DNA from: an uncultured Atopobiaceae bacterium
GTDB taxonomy: Bacteria > Actinomycetota > Coriobacteriia > Coriobacteriales > Atopobiaceae
Direction: 5' to 3'
Assembly: GCA_934792625.1 (NCBI GenBank)
Contig: CAKVON010000004.1
Coordinates: 1-64,000, forward strand
DNA: 64,000 nucleotides
The notes below the pieces were generated by a model. That model did not search any database. It saw nothing but the letters and a program-made list of their open reading frames with translations, and was not told where the DNA came from. Position numbers and translations under genes: made by a program. Below, one piece after another: positions 3,102 to 59,677 of this stretch. Numbering within the stretch: position 1 is the stretch's first letter; every line of letters starts with the position of its first letter.

Positions 3102-4466
3102 CTACTCGCCCATGTAGTCCTTGAGCTTGCTGGAGCGGCTCGGGTGGCGAAGCTTGGCCAAGGTCTTGCTCTCGATCTGACGGATGCGCTCGCGCGTGAC
3201 ACCAAACTCGCGTCCCACCTCCTCGAGCGTGCGAGGGTGACCGTCCTCGAGACCAAAACGCAACTTGATGACCTTACGCTCACGATCGGCGAGTCCGTCG
3301 AGAACCTGGTCGAGCTGCTCGTGGAGCATGGAGTCACTCGCTGCCTCAGGAGGAGCAACTGCCTGGGAGTCCTCGATGAAGTCGCCGAGCTGGGAGTCCT
3401 CCTCCTCGCCGATGGGCGTCTCCAGGGAAACGGGCTCCTGGCTGATCTTCTGGATCTCGCGGACGCGCTCAGCGGTCATGCCCATCTCGGCACCGATCTC
3501 CTCGGGGGTCGGGTCGCGACCGAGGTCCTGAAGGAGCTGACGCTGGACGCGCACAAGCTTGTTGATGGTCTCGACCATGTGGACCGGGATTCTGATGGTA
3601 CGGGCCTGGTCGGCGATTGCGCGAGTGATGGCCTGACGAATCCACCAGGTGGCATAGGTCGAGAACTTGAAGCCCTTGGTGTAGTCGAACTTCTCGACGG
3701 CACGGATGAGGCCGAGGTTGCCCTCCTGAATCAGATCGAGGAACAGCATGCCACGACCGACGTAACGCTTTGCGATGGAGACGACCAGACGGAGGTTGGC
3801 CGAGATGAGGGCCTGCTTGGCCTCGAGGCCAACCTGCTCGACACGGTTGAGGCGACGAAGCTCGACGCGAGTGAGCTCGAGCTCTCCCCTCTCGTGGGCC
3901 TCGAGCTTCTGGGTGGCCTCGGTTCCCGCCTCGATCTTCATGGCGAGGTGAACCTCTTCGGCAGCGGTGAGGAGGTCAACCTTGCCGATCTCCTTGAGGT
4001 ACATGCGAACGGGGTCGCCCGTTAGCATGACGGTGGAGGTATCGACGCGCTTGCGGGCACGACCGCGGGTGGAGCGCTTGGCCGAGGCCTTGGGCTTGGG
4101 GGCCGAGCGCAGGACCTCGTCGGCAACTCGGGCCTCGGAGACGTCGCGGCGACGGGACTCATCGTCGGAATCGTGGTCGTCATCGGAATCGGAGAAGTCC
4201 TTCTCGTCATCATCAGAGCCAATGGCACCCATGAGCTCGGGAGAAAGGTCGCCCTCACCCTCGGTGACGACATCGATGCCCTTGGCACGAATGGCATCGT
4301 AGACATCGGAGAGCTCGTCTCCGTCCACGTCAACCTCACGCAGGGCGACCTGAATGTCGTCCTCGCTGACGCTACCCGATGCGGAGGCCTTGCCCACCAG
4401 CTGCTCGACAACCTGAGCGAGCTCGTCGGGAAGCTTGACGTCGGCGTTCTTCTTCTTGGCTGCCAC
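3102..4466 (-). CDS. rpoD: primary sigma factor RpoD/SigA
   Basis: This 454-residue sigma-70 factor directs RNA polymerase to housekeeping promoters. It has a region 1.1-like N-terminus (1-80), a low-complexity acidic then basic linker (84-140), region 1.2 (from [11 protein letters not shown], 151), regions 2.1-2.4 with the RpoD box [19 protein letters not shown] (about 260-278), region 3, and region 4 with a helix-turn-helix ending in [11 protein letters not shown]. The GTG at 4466 is chosen because AAGGAAA lies 7 bases upstream; the open frame continues to a TTG at 4508 without support. It is the last gene of the rimP-to-rpoD run, 75 bases after dnaG, the classical macromolecular-synthesis pairing. 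Confidence 0.97.
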
Positions 4467-6482: not shown

Positions 6483-7453
6483 GCGCAGACCTCCACTCGC
6501 GCCCTTCCGACGTTATTAGCCACCCAGTCTATGTTCCCCAGGACGGTGCGTTCGAGCTCCTCGATATTGGAGAACGCGCGGGACGGCCTGAGAAACTCGA
6601 GGAATACCACCTCGACGACGGAGTCGTACAGGTCCCCCTCGAATCCCAGGAGGTTTCCCTCGAGGAAAGCGCCGCGCGATGCCGAGAAGGTCGGCGGGGC
6701 GCCGACGTTGACCGCCGCAGGCCAGGCCTCGTTGCCACGAACGACGAGTGCGGCATAGACGCCGTCGGCGGGCATGCAGGACCGCGCGTCGCACTCGACG
6801 TTGGCGGTGGGAAACCCGAAGGAGGTCCCCTCGCCACGACCGTGCACGACACGACCGCGCACGAAGTGGCACCTGCCAAGCAGGCTCGCCGCCCCCCGTA
6901 CGTCACACGTGCCGAGAAGGACGCGGATTCGCGTCGCGGAGACGGGCGAGCCGCCATGCCTGACGAGCTCGTGACCGATTACCTTGAAGCCAAGCTCCTG
7001 GCCAAGGGCCGCCAGGCGCTCCACATCCCCCTCGCCGTCGCGACCAAGACGGAAGTCTCTTCCGACGTGGATGGAGCGCAGGTGCCCCAAACGGCCAAGG
7101 TATTGAGTGACAAACTCCCGATACCCGGTTTGCATGACGGAATCGTCAAAGCGAACGGTCGCAACCTCATCAACGCCGAGTGCAGACAACGCACGGACCC
7201 GGTCGTCAGCCGACAGGAGCCTAGGCTGCCCCACGCCAAGCACCTCGGAGGGGTCGGGGTCGAAGGTCACGGCAACACAGCCTGCCCCGCGGGCATGGGC
7301 ATCCTCCACGCAGGCGCGAACCAGCGCACGATGCCCAAGATGGACGCCATCGAACGCGCCGACACAGACACAGACGTCGCGATTGCGATCGAAAGAGGCA
7401 TCCGCATCATATGAGACGACACGAATGGACCCAAGCCCATTGGAGCCTCGCAC
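6479..7453 (-). CDS. ribF: bifunctional riboflavin kinase / FAD synthetase
   Basis: RibF converts riboflavin to FMN and then FAD. The N-terminal adenylyltransferase domain has GAFDGVHLGHRAL and, further on, SATRIR. The C-terminal kinase domain has TSFGFPTANV and AAVNVGAPPTF. The frame stays open far upstream inside truB without RibF-like sequence. The GTG at 7453 gives 324 residues with about 30 before the nucleotide motif, close to the family length. An earlier TTG at 7555 overlapping the truB stop is the alternative, so the start is uncertain. It sits between truB and dnaG in the operon. Confidence 0.93.
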   Translation of the reverse strand: MRGSNGLGSIRVVSYDADASFDRNRDVCVCVGAFDGVHLGHRALVRACVEDAHARGAGCVAVTFDPDPSEVLGVGQPRLLSADDRVRALSALGVDEVATVRFDDSVMQTGYREFVTQYLGRLGHLRSIHVGRDFRLGRDGEGDVERLAALGQELGFKVIGHELVRHGGSPVSATRIRVLLGTCDVRGAASLLGRCHFVRGRVVHGRGEGTSFGFPTANVECDARSCMPADGVYAALVVRGNEAWPAAVNVGAPPTFSASRGAFLEGNLLGFEGDLYDSVVEVVFLEFLRPSRAFSNIEELERTVLGNIDWVANNVGRARVEVCA

Positions 7454-7551
7454 GCAAGGCGCGTCCGCCAAAACGGCTGCCGAGGCCAGCGCGGAGGCTC
7501 TGGCGGAATTCAGCGGGAATCGGAAGGGGCCGTCCGCGGCGCCGCCCGCAA

Positions 7552-8493
7552 TCAAAGGCGAACCCCCGCGACCCCCGACGGGAAGTTGACCGAGCACCTG
7601 AGCCTGTTGCGAGTTACCTCCCACACGCCGAGCAGAAGGCCATCGGCCACCAAGCTCACACGCTGCCCATCGGTCGGGATGGAACCATCGGAGAGCCTTC
7701 CCGCCGCGATGGTACGACCGCAGGCCACCGAAGCGAGCTCTTCGGCTGTCAGGCGTCGAACCGGCAGGCCAAGGCCATACGCGGGATCGAGACAGCGGTC
7801 TGTGACGAGCTGGGCGCCCTTCTCGGCAAGCTCGTCGAGGGTGACGCAGTCGTCGATGGCGACGAGCCCGCTCGCGGTACGCCGGAGGCCGCAAAGGTGC
7901 GCTGCCGTGCCGAGGCTGCGGCCGAGGTCACGGGCAATGCTACGCACGTAACAACCCTTGGATACGTGGAGCGAGCACTCCCAGGTGATGGGGTCACACG
8001 AGGCCACTTCCACGAGCGAGGCATCGATGATTCGAACGCGGCGGGGCTCGAGCTCGAAGTCCTCGCCGTCACGAGCGCGCTGGTACGAGCGGACACCGTT
8101 GACGGAGATGGCGCTGAACGCAGGCGGAACCTGGTCGACCTCGCCAACGAGAGAGGCAACGACGACCTGCGCGACCTCGGGTTGCGCAAGACGGTCGGGC
8201 ACGAGAGCCTCGCGCGTCACCTCGCCCTCGGCATCGTCGGTATTGGTCTCGGAGCCAAACTCGACCAGCGCGTCATAACGCTTGTCGTCTGCCGTCATGA
8301 GGCCCATGAGCCTGGTGCCCTGGCCGATTCCAACAACCATTGCGCCGGAGGCGTCGGGGTCGAGGGTGCCGGCATGGCCGACGCGACGCTCCCCGAGCGC
8401 TCGCCTCACCCTATTGACTACGTCATGGCTGGTCATGCCGAGGGGCTTGTCGACGGCAATGACGGCATTGATGCCGGAGGTTCCACGCCTCAT
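7552..8493 (-). CDS. truB: tRNA pseudouridine(55) synthase TruB
   Basis: This 313-residue enzyme makes pseudouridine 55 in the T-loop of tRNAs. It starts with the typical GINAVIAVDKPLGMTSHDVV, and the catalytic aspartate lies in VGHAGTLDPDASG. Motif II (RYDALVEFG) and a C-terminal extension follow. The ATG at 8493 is taken because GAAGGGA lies upstream and family similarity begins there. It is 25 bases downstream of nrnA in the same transcript. Confidence 0.96.
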   Translation of the reverse strand: MRRGTSGINAVIAVDKPLGMTSHDVVNRVRRALGERRVGHAGTLDPDASGAMVVGIGQGTRLMGLMTADDKRYDALVEFGSETNTDDAEGEVTREALVPDRLAQPEVAQVVVASLVGEVDQVPPAFSAISVNGVRSYQRARDGEDFELEPRRVRIIDASLVEVASCDPITWECSLHVSKGCYVRSIARDLGRSLGTAAHLCGLRRTASGLVAIDDCVTLDELAEKGAQLVTDRCLDPAYGLGLPVRRLTAEELASVACGRTIAAGRLSDGSIPTDGQRVSLVADGLLLGVWEVTRNRLRCSVNFPSGVAGVRL

Positions 8494-8518
8494 GTCGTAC
8501 CAGTCCCTTCGTGAATCG

Positions 8519-9968: not shown

Positions 9969-12617
9969 CTACTCGGTGCGGGCGACCTCGATGATCTTGA
10001 AGCCCTCGATCTGGTCGCCGGGGTGGATGTCCTGGTAGTTCTCGAGGCCAATGCCGCACTCGAAGCCGGCCTTGACGCTCTTGACGTCGTCCTTGAAGCG
10101 GCGGAGCGAGCCGATCTTGCCCTCATAGATGACGATGCCGTCGCGCACGAGGCGAACCTGGTCGTCGCGGCCAATCTCGCCCTCGACGACCATGCAGCCG
10201 GCAGCGATGCCGACCTTGGGGACCTTGAAGGTGTCGCGGACCTCGGCGGTGCCGGTAGCGACCTCCTGCTCGGTCGGCTTGAGCATGCCGATGCGGGCCG
10301 CGTCAATCTCCTCGATTGCCTTATAGATGACGCTGTAGGTGCGAATCTCGACGCCATCGCGCTCGGCGGCGGTACGGGCCTTGGCATCCGGGCGGACGCC
10401 GAAGCCGATGATGATGGCGTTAGAGGCGTCGGCCAAAACGACGTCGGTCTCGTTGATCGCACCGACGGCGGAGTGGATAGTGTTGATGCGAACCTCGGAC
10501 TGATCCATCTTGTCCAGCGAGTCCTGAAGGGCCTCGATGGAGCCCTGGACATCGGCCTTGATGATGAGGTTGAGCTCCTTGACGTCGGCGTCGGCCATGG
10601 TGTCGAAGAGGTTCTCGAGCGTTACGTGCTTGACGCGGTTCTGCTCCTCGATGCGGGCCTTGAGGGCACGCTGGTCAGCCAGGTCGCGGGCGTCGCGATC
10701 GTCCTGGAAGACGCGGAACTCGTCGCCGGCCTTGGGCACGGACTGCAGGCCGAGGATCTCGACGGGGTCGGACGGGCCGGCCTCGGTGACGGAGCGGCCC
10801 TTGGGGTCGACCATCGCACGGACACGACCATACGCCATGCCGGCAACCAGGGCATCGCCGACGTGCAGCGTGCCACGGGTGACCAGGACGGTGGCGACCG
10901 AGCCGCGACCCTTGTCGAGCTTTGCCTCGAGGACGTTGCCGGAGGCGAAGGTGTTCGGGTTGCCCTTGAGCTCGAGGACGTCTGCCTGGAGAAGGACCGT
11001 CTCGAGAAGGTCGTCAATACCGATCTTCTTCTTGGCGGAGATGTTCACGAACATGTTCTGGCCACCCCACTCCTCGGGGATGACTCCATACTCGGTAAGC
11101 TCCTGGCGAACCTTGTCGGGGTTGGCGCCTGGCTTGTCGATCTTGTTGACGGCGACGATGATGGGCACGCCTGCGGCCTTCGCGTGGTTGATCGACTCGA
11201 TGGTCTGGGGCATGACGCCGTCGTCAGCGGCGACGATCAGGATGACGATGTCGGTGACCTTGGCACCACGGGCGCGCATGGCGGTGAACGTCTCGTGGCC
11301 CGGGGTGTCGATGAAGGTGATGATGCGGTCGTTAATCTTGACCTGGGAGGCACCGATGGCCTGGGTGATGCCGCCAGCCTCGCCCTCGGCGACGCCGGTG
11401 TGACGGATGGCGTCAAGCAGCGAGGTCTTGCCGTGGTCGACGTGGCCCATGACGGTGACGACCGGGGCGCGCGGCAGCAGGTCGGCGGGGTCATCGTAGA
11501 ACGTGAAGGAGTTCTCCTCCTCCTTGCTCATGACCTTGACCTCACGGCCCAGGTCGTCGGCGACGAGCTCGATGAGGTCGTCAGACATCGACTGGGTGAG
11601 GGTCAGCGGGTTGCCGAGAAGGAACAGGCGCTTGATGATGTCGTTGGCGGGAACGCCGAGAAGCTCGGCGAGCTCGGCGACAGTGGAGCCCTGCGGGACC
11701 TTGACCGTGTCGAGCTGGGACAGGTCCTGGTCGTTGGCGATTGCCTCCTCGATGCGCTGCTGCTCGGCTGCCTCCTCGGCCTGCTTCTGGCGGCGCTCCT
11801 TGCGCTTCTTGCGGCGGCCGGTCGACTCGCGGCTGGCCTCCTCGACGGCGGCACGGGCCTCCTCGAGGACGTGCTCGCGGTTGTACTCCTCCGCGGCACG
11901 AGCCATGCGAGAGTAACGGTCCTCGCTGGACTCCTCGCCGCGACGCGCCTTGTGGCCCTTGCCGCGCTTAGAGCCGGCACCCTCGGCGCGGGCCTGCTCG
12001 CCGGCAACGTCCATGGCCTGGGAGCCGGGCTGCTGCCTGCGGCCACGGCCGGAGGCGTTGTGGCCGCCACGAGAGTTGCCCGACTTGGCCTCGGCCTTCG
12101 CGCTGGCGGCCTCGGCGGCCTGCTGCGCGAGGACCTTCTCCTGCTGGGCGATCTGGTCGAGCAGGCTGGCCATGGAGGGGACGGCCTTGGGGGCGGTGTC
12201 CTTCACGCGGTTGCGCTCGGCCTCCTCGGCGGCAAGGCGCTCGGCCTCGCGGCGCTTCTCCTCCTCGGCACGCTGCTTGGCACGGCGCTCCTCCTCGGCG
12301 GCGCGGCGCTTCTCCTCCTCGGCGCGCTCGGCCTCGCGGCGCTTCTCGGCAGCGATGCGCTCTTCCTCGGCCTTGGCCTTCGCCTCGGCCTCCTCGGCCG
12401 CCTTCTTTTCGGCCTCGGCCTGCTTGGCGGCCTCGATCTCGGCCGCGCGGGCCTCGAGGATCGGGGCGAGCTTCTTCTTGACCATGTTGACGTACGCGTC
12501 CTCGAGAGAGGAGGACGGCGAGGTCGCGGGGATCTTCATGTCCTTGAGGTGACCGAGCATCTCCTTGCTGGTCATGCCATATTCCTTGGCGAGGACACTG
12601 ACTCGGGTCTTTGCCAT
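9969..12617 (-). CDS. infB: translation initiation factor IF-2
   Basis: This 882-residue GTPase delivers fMet-tRNA to the 30S subunit. An IF2_N module (1-55) is followed by a very long Ala/Glu/Lys/Arg-rich segment (about 57-145) and a Gly/Arg/Lys-rich linker, then a second IF2_N module (about 305-355). The G domain has GHVDHGKTSLLDAIR (near 390), DTPGH and NKID, followed by domains II-IV. The long charged N-terminus is typical of high-GC actinobacterial IF-2. The ATG at 12617 has AGGAAGG 9 bases upstream; a GTG two codons earlier is too close to that site. Confidence 0.97.
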   Translation of the reverse strand: MAKTRVSVLAKEYGMTSKEMLGHLKDMKIPATSPSSSLEDAYVNMVKKKLAPILEARAAEIEAAKQAEAEKKAAEEAEAKAKAEEERIAAEKRREAERAEEEKRRAAEEERRAKQRAEEEKRREAERLAAEEAERNRVKDTAPKAVPSMASLLDQIAQQEKVLAQQAAEAASAKAEAKSGNSRGGHNASGRGRRQQPGSQAMDVAGEQARAEGAGSKRGKGHKARRGEESSEDRYSRMARAAEEYNREHVLEEARAAVEEASRESTGRRKKRKERRQKQAEEAAEQQRIEEAIANDQDLSQLDTVKVPQGSTVAELAELLGVPANDIIKRLFLLGNPLTLTQSMSDDLIELVADDLGREVKVMSKEEENSFTFYDDPADLLPRAPVVTVMGHVDHGKTSLLDAIRHTGVAEGEAGGITQAIGASQVKINDRIITFIDTPGHETFTAMRARGAKVTDIVILIVAADDGVMPQTIESINHAKAAGVPIIVAVNKIDKPGANPDKVRQELTEYGVIPEEWGGQNMFVNISAKKKIGIDDLLETVLLQADVLELKGNPNTFASGNVLEAKLDKGRGSVATVLVTRGTLHVGDALVAGMAYGRVRAMVDPKGRSVTEAGPSDPVEILGLQSVPKAGDEFRVFQDDRDARDLADQRALKARIEEQNRVKHVTLENLFDTMADADVKELNLIIKADVQGSIEALQDSLDKMDQSEVRINTIHSAVGAINETDVVLADASNAIIIGFGVRPDAKARTAAERDGVEIRTYSVIYKAIEEIDAARIGMLKPTEQEVATGTAEVRDTFKVPKVGIAAGCMVVEGEIGRDDQVRLVRDGIVIYEGKIGSLRRFKDDVKSVKAGFECGIGLENYQDIHPGDQIEGFKIIEVARTE

Positions 12618-12670
12618 GTGCACTACCTTCCTGAAGTAAGACGACGTTTCCTTGGGTGTTGGCCTATGGC

Positions 12671-26494: not shown

Positions 26495-28432
26495 ATGCCA
26501 CAGACCGCTACCGAACCGCGCGAACGCCGGCTGAGTTACCTCAGGCTGCTCTCGGATCGCTTTCCCACCTGCCAGGCGGCCTACACCGAGGCCATCAACC
26601 TCAAGGCGATTCTCAACCTCCCCAAGGCGACCGAACACTTCATGAGCGACATCCACGGCGAGTACGAGGCCTTCGCGCACATCCTCAACAACTGCTCCGG
26701 GGTCGTGCGCGAGCTTGTGGACAAGATCTTTGCCGACGAGCTCAGCGACACGGAGCGCGCCGACCTCTGCACGCTCATCTACTACCCCCGCGCAAAGCTC
26801 GCCCGCATCCACAGGGAGGGTCTCGCGAGCGACGCGTGGTACTACGAAAACCTGTTCCGCATCGTCCGCGTAGCCAGGTGGCTGTCCGGCCTCTACACGC
26901 GTTCCAAGGTGCGAAAGGCCATGCCCGTGGCATATGCCTACATCATCGACGAGTTGCTTCGCGCGTCCGGCGTTGGCGAGAAGAGCCGTCACGACTACCA
27001 CGTGCGCATCATCGACTCGATCATCGAGACCGGCTCGGCCGATGACTTCATCGAGTCGCTTGCCTCCCTGGTCAAGCGCCTTGCGGTCGACCGGCTCCAC
27101 ATCGTCGGCGACATCTTCGACCGCGGCCAGCATGCCGACAAGATCCTCGACGAGCTCATGTCCTACCACACGCTCGACTTCCAGTGGGGAAACCACGACA
27201 TCTGTTGGATGGGGGCCGCCGCGGGAAGCGAGGCCTGCGTGGCCTCGGTCGTCCGCAACAACGTCCGCTACGACGCCTACGGCATCCTCGAGAGCGCCTA
27301 CGGCATCTCGCTTCGCGAGCTCGCCCTGTTCGCGGAGCGCACCTACGCCTCAGACGACGTAATCTCCCCCACCGACAAGGCCATCAACGTCATACTCTTC
27401 AAGCTCGAGGGCCAGCTCATCAAGCGCCAGCCCGAGTTCCAGATGGAGGACAGGCTGCTTCTCGACAAGATCGACCTGTCGAGAGGAACGGTGGAGATTG
27501 CGGGGAAGACCCATGAGCTGCGCACGCGGGACCTGCCCACCATCGACCCGGAAGACCCTTATCGGCTGAGCGAGGACGAGCAGAGCGTCATCGATGGCCT
27601 CGTCCGCGCGTTTCGCGACAGCGAGCGGCTGAGCAGGCAGGTCGAGTTCCTCTACGAGCACGGCTCCATGTACCTCGTGAGCAATGGCAACCTCCTGTTC
27701 CACGGCTGCATCCCCCTATATATGTATGGCTCCTTCAGGCCCGTGAGCTGTGCCGGCAGGCACTACGCAGGCAGGGCGTACATGGACTTCTGCGACCGCA
27801 TGGCACGCCGCGCATGGCACGGCCACGACAGAGACGCCCTCGACTGGATGTGGTACCTGTGGTGCGGCAAGTACTCCCCGCTTTCCGGCAGGGTCGTCAA
27901 GACCTTCGAGCGCACGCTAATCGAGGACAAGTCGACCTGGGTCGAGCCCCAGGACGCATACTACGAGCTCACCAACTCGCCCAACGTCTGCAAGCGAATC
28001 CTGGCGGAGTTCGGCCTGGTCGGCGAGCACTGCCACATCATCAACGGGCACACCCCCGTCAAGACCTCCTCCGGCGAAAGCCCGATCAAGGCAGATGGGC
28101 GTCTCCTCGTGATCGACGGCGGCTTCTGCCGTGCCTACCACAAGAAGACTGGCATCGCGGGATTCACGCTCATCTCGGGCACGGACGGCATGCGCATCAA
28201 AGCGCACCGACCGTTCGTGAGCGTCGAGGCCGCCCTCGACGACAACGCCGACATCCGAAGCGACACCGACGCCTTCGAGGTCGAGGACCCTCCCCTCACC
28301 GTCGGGGACACCGACACCGGCGTCGACATCCGCAGGCAGATCTCGGACCTCGAGTCACTTCTCGACGCATACCGCACCGGCATGCTCGCGGAAAGGCCAC
28401 ATATGATGGCGGGGAGTGCCACGCGCGTCTAA
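26495..28432 (+). CDS. fbp: fructose-1,6-bisphosphatase, class III
   Basis: This 645-residue enzyme of the calcineurin-like metallophosphatase fold removes the 1-phosphate from fructose 1,6-bisphosphate in gluconeogenesis. Metal-binding motifs are SDIHGEY (D52), VGDIFDRG (about 207) and GNHD (about 231). Later NGHTPVK and IDGGFCRAYHKKTGIAG are characteristic of the B. subtilis-type enzyme. The ATG at 26495 fits the family length and a -10-like TATAGA at 26416-26421; the earlier ATG at 26432 would leave almost no leader. A second, unrelated FBPase (glpX) lies at 51166-52179. Confidence 0.94.
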   Translation: MPQTATEPRERRLSYLRLLSDRFPTCQAAYTEAINLKAILNLPKATEHFMSDIHGEYEAFAHILNNCSGVVRELVDKIFADELSDTERADLCTLIYYPRAKLARIHREGLASDAWYYENLFRIVRVARWLSGLYTRSKVRKAMPVAYAYIIDELLRASGVGEKSRHDYHVRIIDSIIETGSADDFIESLASLVKRLAVDRLHIVGDIFDRGQHADKILDELMSYHTLDFQWGNHDICWMGAAAGSEACVASVVRNNVRYDAYGILESAYGISLRELALFAERTYASDDVISPTDKAINVILFKLEGQLIKRQPEFQMEDRLLLDKIDLSRGTVEIAGKTHELRTRDLPTIDPEDPYRLSEDEQSVIDGLVRAFRDSERLSRQVEFLYEHGSMYLVSNGNLLFHGCIPLYMYGSFRPVSCAGRHYAGRAYMDFCDRMARRAWHGHDRDALDWMWYLWCGKYSPLSGRVVKTFERTLIEDKSTWVEPQDAYYELTNSPNVCKRILAEFGLVGEHCHIINGHTPVKTSSGESPIKADGRLLVIDGGFCRAYHKKTGIAGFTLISGTDGMRIKAHRPFVSVEAALDDNADIRSDTDAFEVEDPPLTVGDTDTGVDIRRQISDLESLLDAYRTGMLAERPHMMAGSATRV

Positions 28433-48154: not shown

Positions 48155-48380
48155 GCCTTCTCCTCTCGGTCGGCGCCCGCACAGCCCTCGCTGCGACGCA
48201 CTCGCCATGGAGGGTGGGTGCGCATATTCGGACGCCGTCTTCTCAAACTTGAACAACTTGTTAGTATAGCCGTTGCGGTACCTGCCTTCGCGTGCGCGAG
48301 GGCATGCGAGCATACACAGACCATAAGGGGCCTCGAATAGAACCCTCTTGGATTAATTTGCTCGTAGTTGTGGAGGTACC

Positions 48381-48408
48381 TTGCATGGGAAAATCCCTGT
48401 GCTATATT
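48381..48408 (+). promoter_or_regulatory. promoter of rpmB
   Basis: TTGCAT (48381-48386), 16-base spacer, TATATT (48403-48408), with TG one base before the -10. It is the strongest plus-strand promoter seen in the window. Confidence 0.8.
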
Positions 48409-48465
48409 TATCCAGCTATGTGTCATCGCGTGCGCGAGAGCGCCGCTGCAACGGAGGTTTTAACC

Positions 48466-48654
48466 ATGTCGAAGGTTTGTGAGATCTGCGGTAAGCACGC
48501 TGTCGCCGGTCGTTCGGTCAGCCACTCGCACCGCGTCGTCAACCGCAAGTTCAAGCCCAACATCCAGCACGTCAGCGTTGTCGTCGACGGTCACCGTCAG
48601 AAGATGAACGTCTGCACCACGTGCCTGAAGTCTGGCAAGGTTGCTCGCTCCTAA
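48466..48654 (+). CDS. rpmB: 50S ribosomal protein L28 (zinc form)
   Basis: This 62-residue L28 has MSKVCEICGK and the core RRxxKPN-like NRKFKPNIQHV. C5, C8, C50 and C53 form a zinc site. GGAGG lies 8 bases before ATG 48466. It is monocistronic, with a strong promoter and a T-run terminator. Confidence 0.97.
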   Translation: MSKVCEICGKHAVAGRSVSHSHRVVNRKFKPNIQHVSVVVDGHRQKMNVCTTCLKSGKVARS

Positions 48655-48683
48655 GACGCGATAAGCCTCACATTGAACTTTCT

Positions 48684-48709
48684 GGGTCGCCTTCGGGCGG
48701 CCCTTTTTT
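48684..48709 (+). terminator. Rho-independent terminator of rpmB
   Basis: GGGTCGCC pairs with GGCGGCCC (one G-U) across a short TTCG-type loop, followed by a six-T run. Confidence 0.9.
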
Positions 48710-48734
48710 GTTGACAGACAATGGCCCAGCCGGA

Positions 48735-48767
48735 GCACGAGAAGCGTGCGACGTCAGACGGGGCCAC
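48735..48767 (+). repeat. 33-bp direct repeat, copy A
   Basis: Starts GCACGAGAAGCGTGCG and ends GACGGGGCCAC; 31 of 33 bases are identical to copy B at 49140-49172. The two copies bracket the array of 23-bp repeats. Confidence 0.85.
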
Positions 48768-48788
48768 TACAAGCGGACGGGTGCCTGC

Positions 48789-49131
48789 GCCAAGCAAATG
48801 GGTTTTCTTACAGCCAGGCATCACCGCGCGCCAGGGAAACAGAGTTTCTTACCACCCGACACATCGGCGATATGGGGCTCGCGTACCCACGGATAGCCGC
48901 TGCCGACAAAACCGCAGGTAGATAGACTGGACATCTGTGTCGTCCTAATTGGATTGAGGACTTACCGAGCCGATGGGCCCCGAAAACCGTAAGTAAACCC
49001 ATTTGCGTGGCAGAAGGCTCATCCGGTCTGTAAGAAAACTCGCTTTCCTGGCACGGAGAATCGAGTCGGCGTAAGAAAAGCGGCTTGCCTGGCAAATAGC
49101 AGCGCCCCATACGGAAACCCACTTGTTTGGC
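48789..49131. repeat. array of six imperfect 23-bp repeats with 41-bp period
   Basis: Units are at 48789-48811 and 48830-48852 (plus orientation) and at 48989-49011, 49030-49052, 49071-49093 and 49109-49131 (minus orientation). Each begins GCCA and ends near TTTCTTAC (orientation-corrected), with a more variable middle; the best pair matches 21 of 23. Start-to-start spacing is 41, then 41, 41 and 38. No coding frame follows the period (41 is not a multiple of 3). The region from 48710 to 49226 has no recognisable gene; 48853-48988 shows no clear unit. Confidence 0.85.
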
Positions 49132-49139
49132 ACGGGGAA

Positions 49140-49172
49140 GCACGAGACGCGTGCGATGTCAGACGGGGCCAC
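49140..49172 (+). repeat. 33-bp direct repeat, copy B
   Basis: 31 of 33 bases match copy A (48735-48767). Its last part forms the left arm of the hairpin at 49162-49191. Confidence 0.85.
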
Positions 49173-49191
49173 CCTATCGGACGGCCCCGTC
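49162..49191 (-). terminator. hairpin downstream of thiN, possible terminator
   Basis: Perfect 9-bp stem GACGGGGCC / GGCCCCGTC with a 12-nt loop. It lies 35 bases past the thiamine pyrophosphokinase stop; no U-run follows. Confidence 0.45.
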
Positions 49192-49226
49192 ACACAACAA
49201 CCTATATAACAGTCAACGGCATTCGC

Positions 49227-49949
49227 TCAGTCGCGCAGAAAGACCGCCACCGCACCCGAATGGCATTCGACCTCGTCGCCCTCATGCTCCACGACATTCG
49301 AGACGCCGAGGTCGGACAGGACCGGCATGGCGGCATGATCGAGTTCCCAACGTAGGCCGCGCTCACTCGCAACGGTGTCGGCGGCAATGGCCACGACGGA
49401 GACGGTGCGGCCGACATCGCCCGCGCAGGCCCTCCACACGCGCCTCCCCTCGGGAGCGAGGACATGGCATTCGAAACCATCCTCCACGAGTATGGGATCA
49501 AGGTCGGCATACTCGCACATCGCACCAAACACCCCGAGAAAGTGGTCGGGCCTTCCGCCCGAAGAGCAGGTCAGGAACACCCTGGGCAACCTCGACCCGT
49601 TCGCGAGCACACGCTTCTCGGCACGGTTGGTGGCGTCGAGCTCGCCCTTGGGGTCGCGAAGAAGCCGCAGGGCAAGGCCAAGGTCCGTGTAGTCCTTCTG
49701 CGTGGTGAACGTGCGGACGGCACAGCCCATCCCGTCGAGTCGCGCCAGCGAGGTGGACGACGCGCTGTCCGCGTCCCCCACGAAGTCGTCCGGCGCCACA
49801 CCGGCCGCGATGCAGGCATCCAGGCCGCGATCGACCGCCACCACACGGTCGGCGTCAGACGCGAGCCTGCGGAGAAGTTCCGGCGAGCTCGGTTCGGGCG
49901 AGCCCGCGACGACGAGCACCCGCTCGCGCGGGTGGCACTCCCGCGCCAC
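49227..49949 (-). CDS. thiN: thiamine pyrophosphokinase
   Basis: This 240-residue enzyme forms thiamine diphosphate from thiamine and ATP. It shows VAVDRGLDACIAAGVAPDDFVGDADS (about 37-62, motif DFVGDADS), TQKDYTDLGLAL and SSGGRPDHFLG, the family landmarks. The GTG at 49949 lies 2 bases after the HAD gene stop without a clear ribosome-binding site, suggesting coupling. Confidence 0.9.
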   Translation of the reverse strand: MARECHPRERVLVVAGSPEPSSPELLRRLASDADRVVAVDRGLDACIAAGVAPDDFVGDADSASSTSLARLDGMGCAVRTFTTQKDYTDLGLALRLLRDPKGELDATNRAEKRVLANGSRLPRVFLTCSSGGRPDHFLGVFGAMCEYADLDPILVEDGFECHVLAPEGRRVWRACAGDVGRTVSVVAIAADTVASERGLRWELDHAAMPVLSDLGVSNVVEHEGDEVECHSGAVAVFLRD

Positions 49950-58173: not shown

Positions 58174-59436
58174 CTAGGCGCCGAGCTCGGCCACGGCGGC
58201 CTTGAGCTCGTCGGTGCGGTTGGTCGCCTCCCACGTGAAGTCGGCGTCCTCGCGGCCGAAGTGGCCGTACGCGGCGGTCTTCTCGAAGATGGGGCGACGC
58301 AGGTCGAGGTCGCGGATGATGGCGCCGGGACGCAGGTCGAAGACGCGCGAGACCGCCTGCTCGATGACGCGGTCGGAGACCGTGCCCGTACCCTTGGTGT
58401 CGACCAGGACGCTCAGCGGGTGGCTGACGCCGATCGCGTAGGCGAGCTCGACCTCGCACTTGTGGGCCAGCCCCGCGGCAACGACGTTCTTGGCAACCCA
58501 ACGCGCGGCGTACGCGGCGGAACGGTCGACCTTGGTGCAGTCCTTGCCCGAGAAGGCGCCGCCGCCATGACGGCCCATGCCGCCATAGGTGTCGACGATG
58601 ATCTTGCGACCGGTGAGGCCGGTGTCGCCCATGGGGCCGCCGACGACGAAGCGGCCGGTCGGGTTGACGTAGATGTCGGCCTCATCCCACTTGATGCCCT
58701 GGGCGTCGAGCACGGGGGCGATGACGTGCTCGGTGACGTCGCGCTTGATGAGGCCCATGTCGGTAATGGTGGCGTCGTGCTGGGTCGAGACGACGATCGC
58801 GCTGACCTCGACGGGACGGTCGTCCTCGTAGCGGACCGTGACCTGGGTCTTGCCGTCGGGACGCAGGTAGTCGAGCTCGCCGGACTTGCGGACGGCGGCG
58901 AGCCTCTCGCTCATGCGCTGCGCGAGGTAGATGGGCATGGGCATGAGCACGTCGGTCTCGTCGGAGGCGTAGCCGAACATCATGCCCTGGTCGCCGGCAC
59001 CGACCGCGTCGATCGGGTCGGTGGTGCGGCCGGCCTGCGCGTCGAAGGACTCGTCGACGCCCTGGGCGATGTCGGGGCTCTGCTCGTGGATGAGGTTGAG
59101 GACGCCGCAGGTCTCGCAGTCGAAGCCGTACTTCGCGCGGTCGTAGCCGATGCGACGAATGACGTCGCGGGCGATGGTCTGGACGTCGACGTAGGCCTCG
59201 GTGCGAATCTCGCCGGCGACGATGACGGTGCCGGTGGTCACGAACGTCTCACAGGCGCAACGAACGTTCTCGACGCGGGCGGGGGCACCGTTGGGGGCAA
59301 CGTAGCCCGAGGCCTCGAGCTCGGCCTCCTTGGCGAGGATGGCGTCCAGGATGGCGTCGGAGACCTGGTCGCAGATCTTGTCGGGGTGACCCTCGGTCAC
59401 GCTCTCGGACGTGAAGTAGTAGCTGTCGTGTGCCAT
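58174..59436 (-). CDS. metK: S-adenosylmethionine synthetase
   Basis: This 420-residue enzyme makes S-adenosylmethionine from methionine and ATP. It has [32 protein letters not shown], the [20 protein letters not shown]-loop and the conserved DIAQGVDE. The ATG at 59436 has GGAGG upstream. It is controlled by the SAM-I riboswitch immediately upstream, and leads the run to glpX. Confidence 0.97.
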
Positions 59437-59488: not shown

Positions 59489-59677
59489 AGAAGCGGCCCC
59501 CTGCTTGCGAAGGGGACCGCGTTGCAATGCCGCTTCTTCCCCCGTCTTCCAGACCGCGTGCGGCCTGCCGAGAATTGGCACCGTGCCCCGTTTTAGGGGT
59601 CGGTTGCCGGAGCTTCACAGGGCTCGGTCCCTCAGCTCTTTGCGCCCGCGACAGATCCGCGGGAGCCTCTTGACGAG
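59489..59677 (-). ncRNA. SAM-I (S-box) riboswitch controlling metK
   Basis: Minus-strand leader. P1 is CUCGUC (59672-59677) with GACGGG (59541-59546). P2 is GCUC/GAGC around an extra hairpin CCGCG/CGCGG. The conserved core has GAGGGACCGAGCCC, GAAGCUCCGGCAACC, GGUGCCAAUUC and GGAAGA. The antiterminator strand AAGAAGCGGC (59529-59538) can pair with GCCGCTTCT (59489-59497), which is the 3' side of the terminator. SAM binding stabilises P1, frees the terminator and turns metK off; this mode is established for S-box RNAs and inferred here. The rest of 59437-59752 holds the terminator, the promoter and a short spacer. Confidence 0.95.
59493..59520 (-). terminator. expression-platform terminator of the SAM riboswitch
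   Basis: GCGGTCCCCT pairs with AGGGGGCCGC (one U-G) across an 8-nt loop, followed on the minus strand by TTCTCTT. Confidence 0.85.

Follow-up and report, generated by a model that had tools for sequence, protein, structure and literature searches.

Six 23-bp units in two opposed blocks between direct repeats in an Atopobiaceae rpmB–thiN gap

The gap, its repeats and its units

The 64-kb window (the whole stretch of DNA that was analyzed, 64,000 nucleotides) contains a 572-bp gap (pos. 48655–49226) between two convergent genes, rpmB on the + strand and thiN on the − strand. The left neighbor, rpmB (48466–48654), encodes ribosomal protein L28 (TIGR00009, 68.8 bits, above cut-off) and is followed by an intrinsic terminator (48684–48703, +) leading into TTTTTT; the right neighbor, thiN (49227–49949), encodes thiamine diphosphokinase (TIGR01378, 93.2 bits, above cut-off). 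By their NCBIfam and Pfam matches, the genes on the left side of the array are recG, yloV, one of the Asp23 family and rpmB, and those on its right side are thiN, a HAD-IA hydrolase gene, an FmdB zinc-ribbon gene and glpX; the recG and glpX matches were strong yet below the NCBI curated cut-offs. The window around the array is a chromosomal housekeeping region. The interior of the gap is without a credible gene, and the two ORFs across the block (111 and 82 aa), used as protein queries, returned one candidate each and none at E ≤10. The G+C content of the array interior was 0.559, compared with 0.537–0.563 in three nearby intergenic stretches; since this is the ordinary intergenic level, nothing marks the array as foreign.

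In 48 distinct ORFs scanned with NCBIfam and Pfam at E 1e-5, domains of recombinases, transposases or resolvases were not detected. The set comprised five ORFs plus 43 of the 45 that had been picked by composition, the other two being a long frame antisense to recG and yloV and a 111-codon frame; rpmB apart, it was confined to frames of at least 70 codons. Among the frames picked by composition, two adjacent ones of 190 and 367 codons (6842–8514, +) had no Pfam match at 1e-5; they overlap minus-strand ORFs and may not be genes.

Near-identical 33-bp direct repeats on the + strand, DR1 (48735–48767), which bears a GCACG/CGTGC stem, and DR2 (49140–49172), lie 405 bp apart and enclose all of the units described below. 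They match at 31 of 33 positions (34 bp when the preceding A is included), and a looser alignment with one gap extends over approximately 47 columns. In 200 Markov-1 controls of the gap, no direct repeat of 33 bp matched better than 23/33, and the earlier statement that such repeats flank the block is borne out. Inverted-repeat and fold analysis revealed a strong GC dyad, or hairpin, GACGGGGCC...GGCCCCGTC, at 49162–49191; DR2 contains the left arm, of which DR1 therefore has a copy, whereas the right arm is present at the right boundary only. The sequence immediately inward of the left repeat, TACAAG, is not an inverted copy of that inside the right one, TTCCCC (read inward); the distance from repeat edge to first unit is 21 bp on the left and 8 bp on the right.

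The sequence-only reading had described six 23-bp units, two in the + and four in the − orientation, in a gene-free rpmB–thiN gap, and their coordinates were confirmed. The left block consists of u1 (48789–48811) and u2 (48830–48852), both on the + strand, and the right block of u3 (48989–49011), u4 (49030–49052), u5 (49071–49093) and u6 (49109–49131), all on the − strand; the CTTAC end of u6 is degenerate. The 136-bp center between the opposed blocks (48853–48988) contains neither a further unit nor an Rfam match. The 23-bp consensus is about GCCARGCAARYGGGTTTTCTTAC, and its GCCA side points outward in all six units.

The six-unit array is real and not a product of chance. A search for GCCA-N11-TTTCTTAC with ≤2 mismatches returned six matches in the window, namely five of the six units (the one at 49109 was missed) and a stray at 26909; shuffled sequences gave a mean of 1.27 matches, and six were reached in 0 of 100. 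With leave-one-out matrices, each unit scored against the other five reached 18.3–35.2 bits, far over the best non-unit position in the window on either strand (10.4–15.1 bits). The mean pairwise identity of the units was 0.739 compared with 0.25 after shuffling, a value reached in 0 of 2000 shuffles, and u1 and u3 were identical at 21 of 23 positions, as had been noted before. No seventh unit was detected in 48600–49300, where nothing beyond frame-shifted or strand-flipped readings of the six scored above 0 bits, and neither the unit nor the repeat pair recurred in the rest of the 64-kb window.

Positions 1–4, 16, 17, 19, 21 and 22 are kept across the units, and A8A9 is present in all six. 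The ends are thus conserved as had been proposed, but the middle, which had been taken as variable, is not wholly free. The unit was also considered as a palindromic dimer site, and this was rejected, as the best dyad was reached by 1149 of 2000 column shuffles.

Spacing, spacers and RNA folding

Unit starts are separated by 41 bp in the left block and by 41, 41 and 38 bp in the right block. At 10.5 bp per turn, a step of 41 bp stops 34 degrees before full phase, and the one of 38 bp is off by 137 degrees. The proposed 41-bp period, and with it the placement of the units on one face of the DNA, therefore held for the three steps between neighbors at that distance, but not for the u5–u6 step, u6 being the last and least conserved unit.

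Of the 18-bp flanks of the units, the inner ones were at background (identity 0.259 compared with 0.269 shuffled; reached by 1299 of 2000), whereas the outer ones were slightly alike (0.337 compared with 0.265; reached by 12 of 2000). Because the u5–u6 step is 38 bp, both the inner and the outer set include one flank in which 3 of the 18 bases belong to a neighboring unit. The slight likeness on the outer side suggests that the true site may reach a few bases past GCCA. Conserved units, drifted spacers and near-helical steps together are the pattern that selection on protein-binding sites would leave, and this suggests, from sequence, that the units are protein-binding sites. The earlier proposal of a protein-binding array thereby gains indirect support.

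One form that such an array could take is a resident one, bound with approximately four-turn phasing by a host protein of nucleoid, segregation or transcription function, the direct repeats being a separate local duplication of the hairpin element. The near-helical 41-bp spacing of conserved units among drifted spacers agrees with this reading, as do the ordinary intergenic G+C and the absence of mobile-element domains among the ORFs scanned. However, the array is located between two convergent 3′ ends and no sigma-70-type promoter match was found in 48200–49300, which makes control of a neighboring promoter unlikely. GC-skew exhibited no sustained switch at the array, no second such site is present in 64 kb, and the direct repeats are left unexplained. 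We regard the resident array as possible, though on the doubtful side; if it is correct, it points to a DNA-binding protein whose site we were unable to assign to a known kind. Opposed polar sites of the replication-terminus type were rejected on weak grounds, namely the GC-skew result.

The opposed blocks could alternatively pair within a structured non-coding RNA, a possibility raised from the pairing of the first and third units. The region folded better than dinucleotide shuffles (z −4.05 on the + strand and −4.41 on the − strand), and 0 of 100 shuffles folded as well on either strand. When the units were kept and only the spacers shuffled, however, the fold was at least as good in 48 of 120 controls on the + strand and 12 of 120 on the − strand, the minimum free energy structures of the two strands paired different units, and only 7 of 18 bases agreed between the spacers that a nested stem would bring face to face. 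Little therefore speaks for the RNA reading by itself. No Rfam family was found over the array at gathering score, and the sole sub-threshold match in the region, Ysr49 (48610–48708), lies beside the array and scored 20.2 bits against a cut-off of 95; the missing promoter match in 48200–49300 also weighs against this reading. A long structured RNA is, in our estimate, very unlikely. In another part of the window, a SAM riboswitch (RF00162) was recognized at 59539–59651 (−; 47.8 bits against a cut-off of 44.4), and an S-adenosylmethionine synthetase gene (58174–59436) sits downstream of it.

Related sequences in other genomes

Searching the GTDB species genomes with a pattern of two adjacent units (22 fixed bases) yielded one match, locus L001 in Lachnospiraceae, with a chance expectation, by our own arithmetic, of ~0.09 matches before allowing for tandem repeats. 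At 3453–3616 this locus contains four copies of a 41-bp repeat, spacers included, which begin at the stop codon of a 460-codon ORF, so that the ORF ends inside the first repeat. Its spacers are repeated too, sharing 11–18 of 18 bases in six pairs, and none of 99 further genomes sampled from that family group had an exact match. For these three reasons we take L001 to be unrelated; it fits the two-unit pattern by chance. In a matrix scan of 32 loci (L001–L032), it was the only one to show three or more sites scoring >8 bits in a stretch of 400 bp, and on the same scale the six window units score 26–34.

L001 nevertheless bears on a further explanation, namely that the array is a decayed ordinary tandem array or another neutral, functionless repeat. 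The tail of a gene was tandemly duplicated to give L001, which likewise has a period of 41 bp, and this indicates that 41 bp as such is not special. In a neutral repeat, however, units and spacers should decay together, whereas here they stand at 74% and 26% (inner spacers), and the spacers of L001 keep 11–18 of 18 bases, unlike those of the array. We consider a neutral origin quite unlikely. Elsewhere in the window, overlapping short tandem repeats were seen at 12221–12444, in the N-terminal part of the IF-2 frame (9969–12623, −).

Six patterns searched against IMG/VR matched 0, 4, 15, 0, 3 and 12 stretches, none of which contained a comparable array, and peptide patterns of thiN and rpmB matched 8 and 25 stretches there, with no confirmed relative among them. 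Neither plasmids nor E. coli gave a match, and the single phage match (45 bp, E 0.4) was taken as chance. Neither an empty site nor a relative was seen in the GTDB species genomes, IMG/VR, plasmids, phages or E. coli. The closest homologues of thiN (the best 120 of 4173 at E ≤0.001) include full-length proteins at 99%, 98%, 89% and 87% identity, and the highest-ranking of these 120 under an organism name, from Parafannyhessea umbonata and from an Atopobiaceae bacterium, are both at 47%. The lineage seems poorly sampled, so that absence from the collections says little. The array was present in one copy in the 64-kb window, the part of the genome that was scanned for dispersed copies, and no published description of it was recognized in the excerpts of the literature searched. 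Neither chance nor RNA structure accounts for it, nor do the known repeat families tested.

Boundaries compared with attachment sites and transposon ends

We favor, tentatively and at somewhat less than an even chance, the reading that the array is an integrated element without genes, or what is left of such an element after collapse, and that its two ends would be arrays of recombinase-binding sites. The opposed blocks lie near both ends with the GCCA side of every unit outward, and the site is in a chromosomal housekeeping gap beyond the rpmB terminator. The combination of conserved units and drifted spacers fits selection for binding and is counted for the integrated element. DR2 moreover runs into a hairpin whose other arm DR1 lacks, as expected if half of a dyad target was duplicated at integration. 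The resident host-protein array comes close behind this reading.

The mechanism we propose for the integrated element is offered with similar reserve. In a site of the tyrosine-integrase type, DR1 and DR2 would form the common core (attL and attR); the original target (attB) would be the hairpin at DR2, and the 23-bp units would act as arm-type or accessory protein sites. Recombination between DR1 and DR2 would excise ~405 bp as a circle, with the core standing between a group of four units and a group of two inverted ones, and the recombinase would have to come from elsewhere. As for the common core that marks integrase attachment sites, a direct repeat matching at 31/33 is present at both boundaries, 405 bp apart; an integrase gene in or near the element was not found among the 48 ORFs scanned in the window. 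It would be very unusual for an element to lack genes altogether and to have only 136 bp between its two end arrays. If the integrated-element reading is true, the locus would show an integrating element pared down to the sites that proteins bind, as a site-specific equivalent of a MITE, and the array would offer a footprint for finding its recombinase. It is a more speculative step, and one we think unlikely to be right, that there is a whole class of gene-free, site-specifically integrating mini-elements of ~400 bp, each made up solely of a core plus 23-bp recombinase sites in two helically phased arrays of opposed orientation, and moved in trans by a Coriobacteriia recombinase.

Prokaryotic MITEs are small, gene-less and intergenic, with terminal inverted repeats. 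The array is likewise small, gene-less and intergenic, but it has no terminal inverted repeat at its boundaries and is single-copy in the 64-kb window. It could still be a miniature transposon of a TnsB-like (Tn7, IS1202-type) DDE transposase, with several transposase sites per end, in which case the direct repeat would be a target duplication of unusual length; the excerpts of the transposon literature consulted contain parallels. Tn7-like ends bear several asymmetric transposase sites with spacing effects at ~10-bp intervals (PMC10201428), and Tn7-like and CAST ends (TnsB sites) thus resemble the array in having multiple asymmetric, helically spaced sites per end; u6 lies 8 bp from the repeat edge, like the first site from the VchCAST tip (PMC10201428). 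In VchCAST, changes of −1 bp or +2 bp abolished transposition, and some larger changes worked with the boundary shifted (PMC10201428). The array differs from these ends in that the left distance is 21 bp rather than ~8, so that TG tips ~8 bp from the first site are not present on both sides, and in that the repeat edges, reading TACAAG and TTCCCC inward, exhibit neither inverted tips nor TG/CA ends; its direct repeat is 33 bp, compared with the short target duplication of Tn7-like elements and CASTs.

A second parallel is provided by the excerpted account of the IS1202 family, in which the transposase of ISAjo2 was modelled on TnsB, the terminal inverted repeats of the ISAjo2 type are 24–26 bp with an additional site, and the related IS1202 group has long target duplications of 16–28 bp (PMC10132070). 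In contrast, the repeat edges here bear no terminal inverted repeat, the units form regular arrays of 2 + 4, no transposase was found in the window, and a duplication of 33–34 bp exceeds the IS1202-group range (PMC10132070). Ends of the IS21 family also carry repeats, typically at least two per end in the portion of the source consulted; IS21-type ends were rejected, as their R1 and R2 are one base pair apart compared with 18 bp between units of the array (PMC11208146). We rate a TnsB-like miniature transposon as unlikely. The unlike edges and the unequal distances (21 and 8 bp) would suit an attL/attR pair better than a DDE transposon, since arm distances may differ whereas DDE tips should match.

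Under the integrated-element reading, the units would correspond to arm-type sites, for which excerpts of two mycobacteriophage papers provide a comparison. The predicted arm-type sites of Clusters J and K1 are 10–11 bp (PMC3706429, PMC3203893), whereas the opposed blocks here consist of 2 and 4 units of 23 bp at a 41-bp period, and a 23-bp arm-type site at such a period had no counterpart in the parts of the attP literature examined. The phages of these two clusters encode an integrase, and none was found in the window; the ends of such a phage, once integrated, are a whole phage genome apart, compared with 136 bp between the blocks of the array. Inverted arms are not the rule in the excerpted descriptions, which counts against the attP reading: L5 and Giles have arm-type sites in direct orientation, and Pixie has five in one orientation and one opposed (PMC3203893). 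On the other hand, in the predicted attP of Cluster J a 44-bp core lies between pairs of arm-type sites (PMC3706429), and that of Cluster K1 has two arm-type pairs flanking the core in mutually inverted orientation (PMC3203893). As a circle, the array would resemble both in having a common core between groups of repeated units, and would resemble K1 also in that the two groups are inverted to each other.
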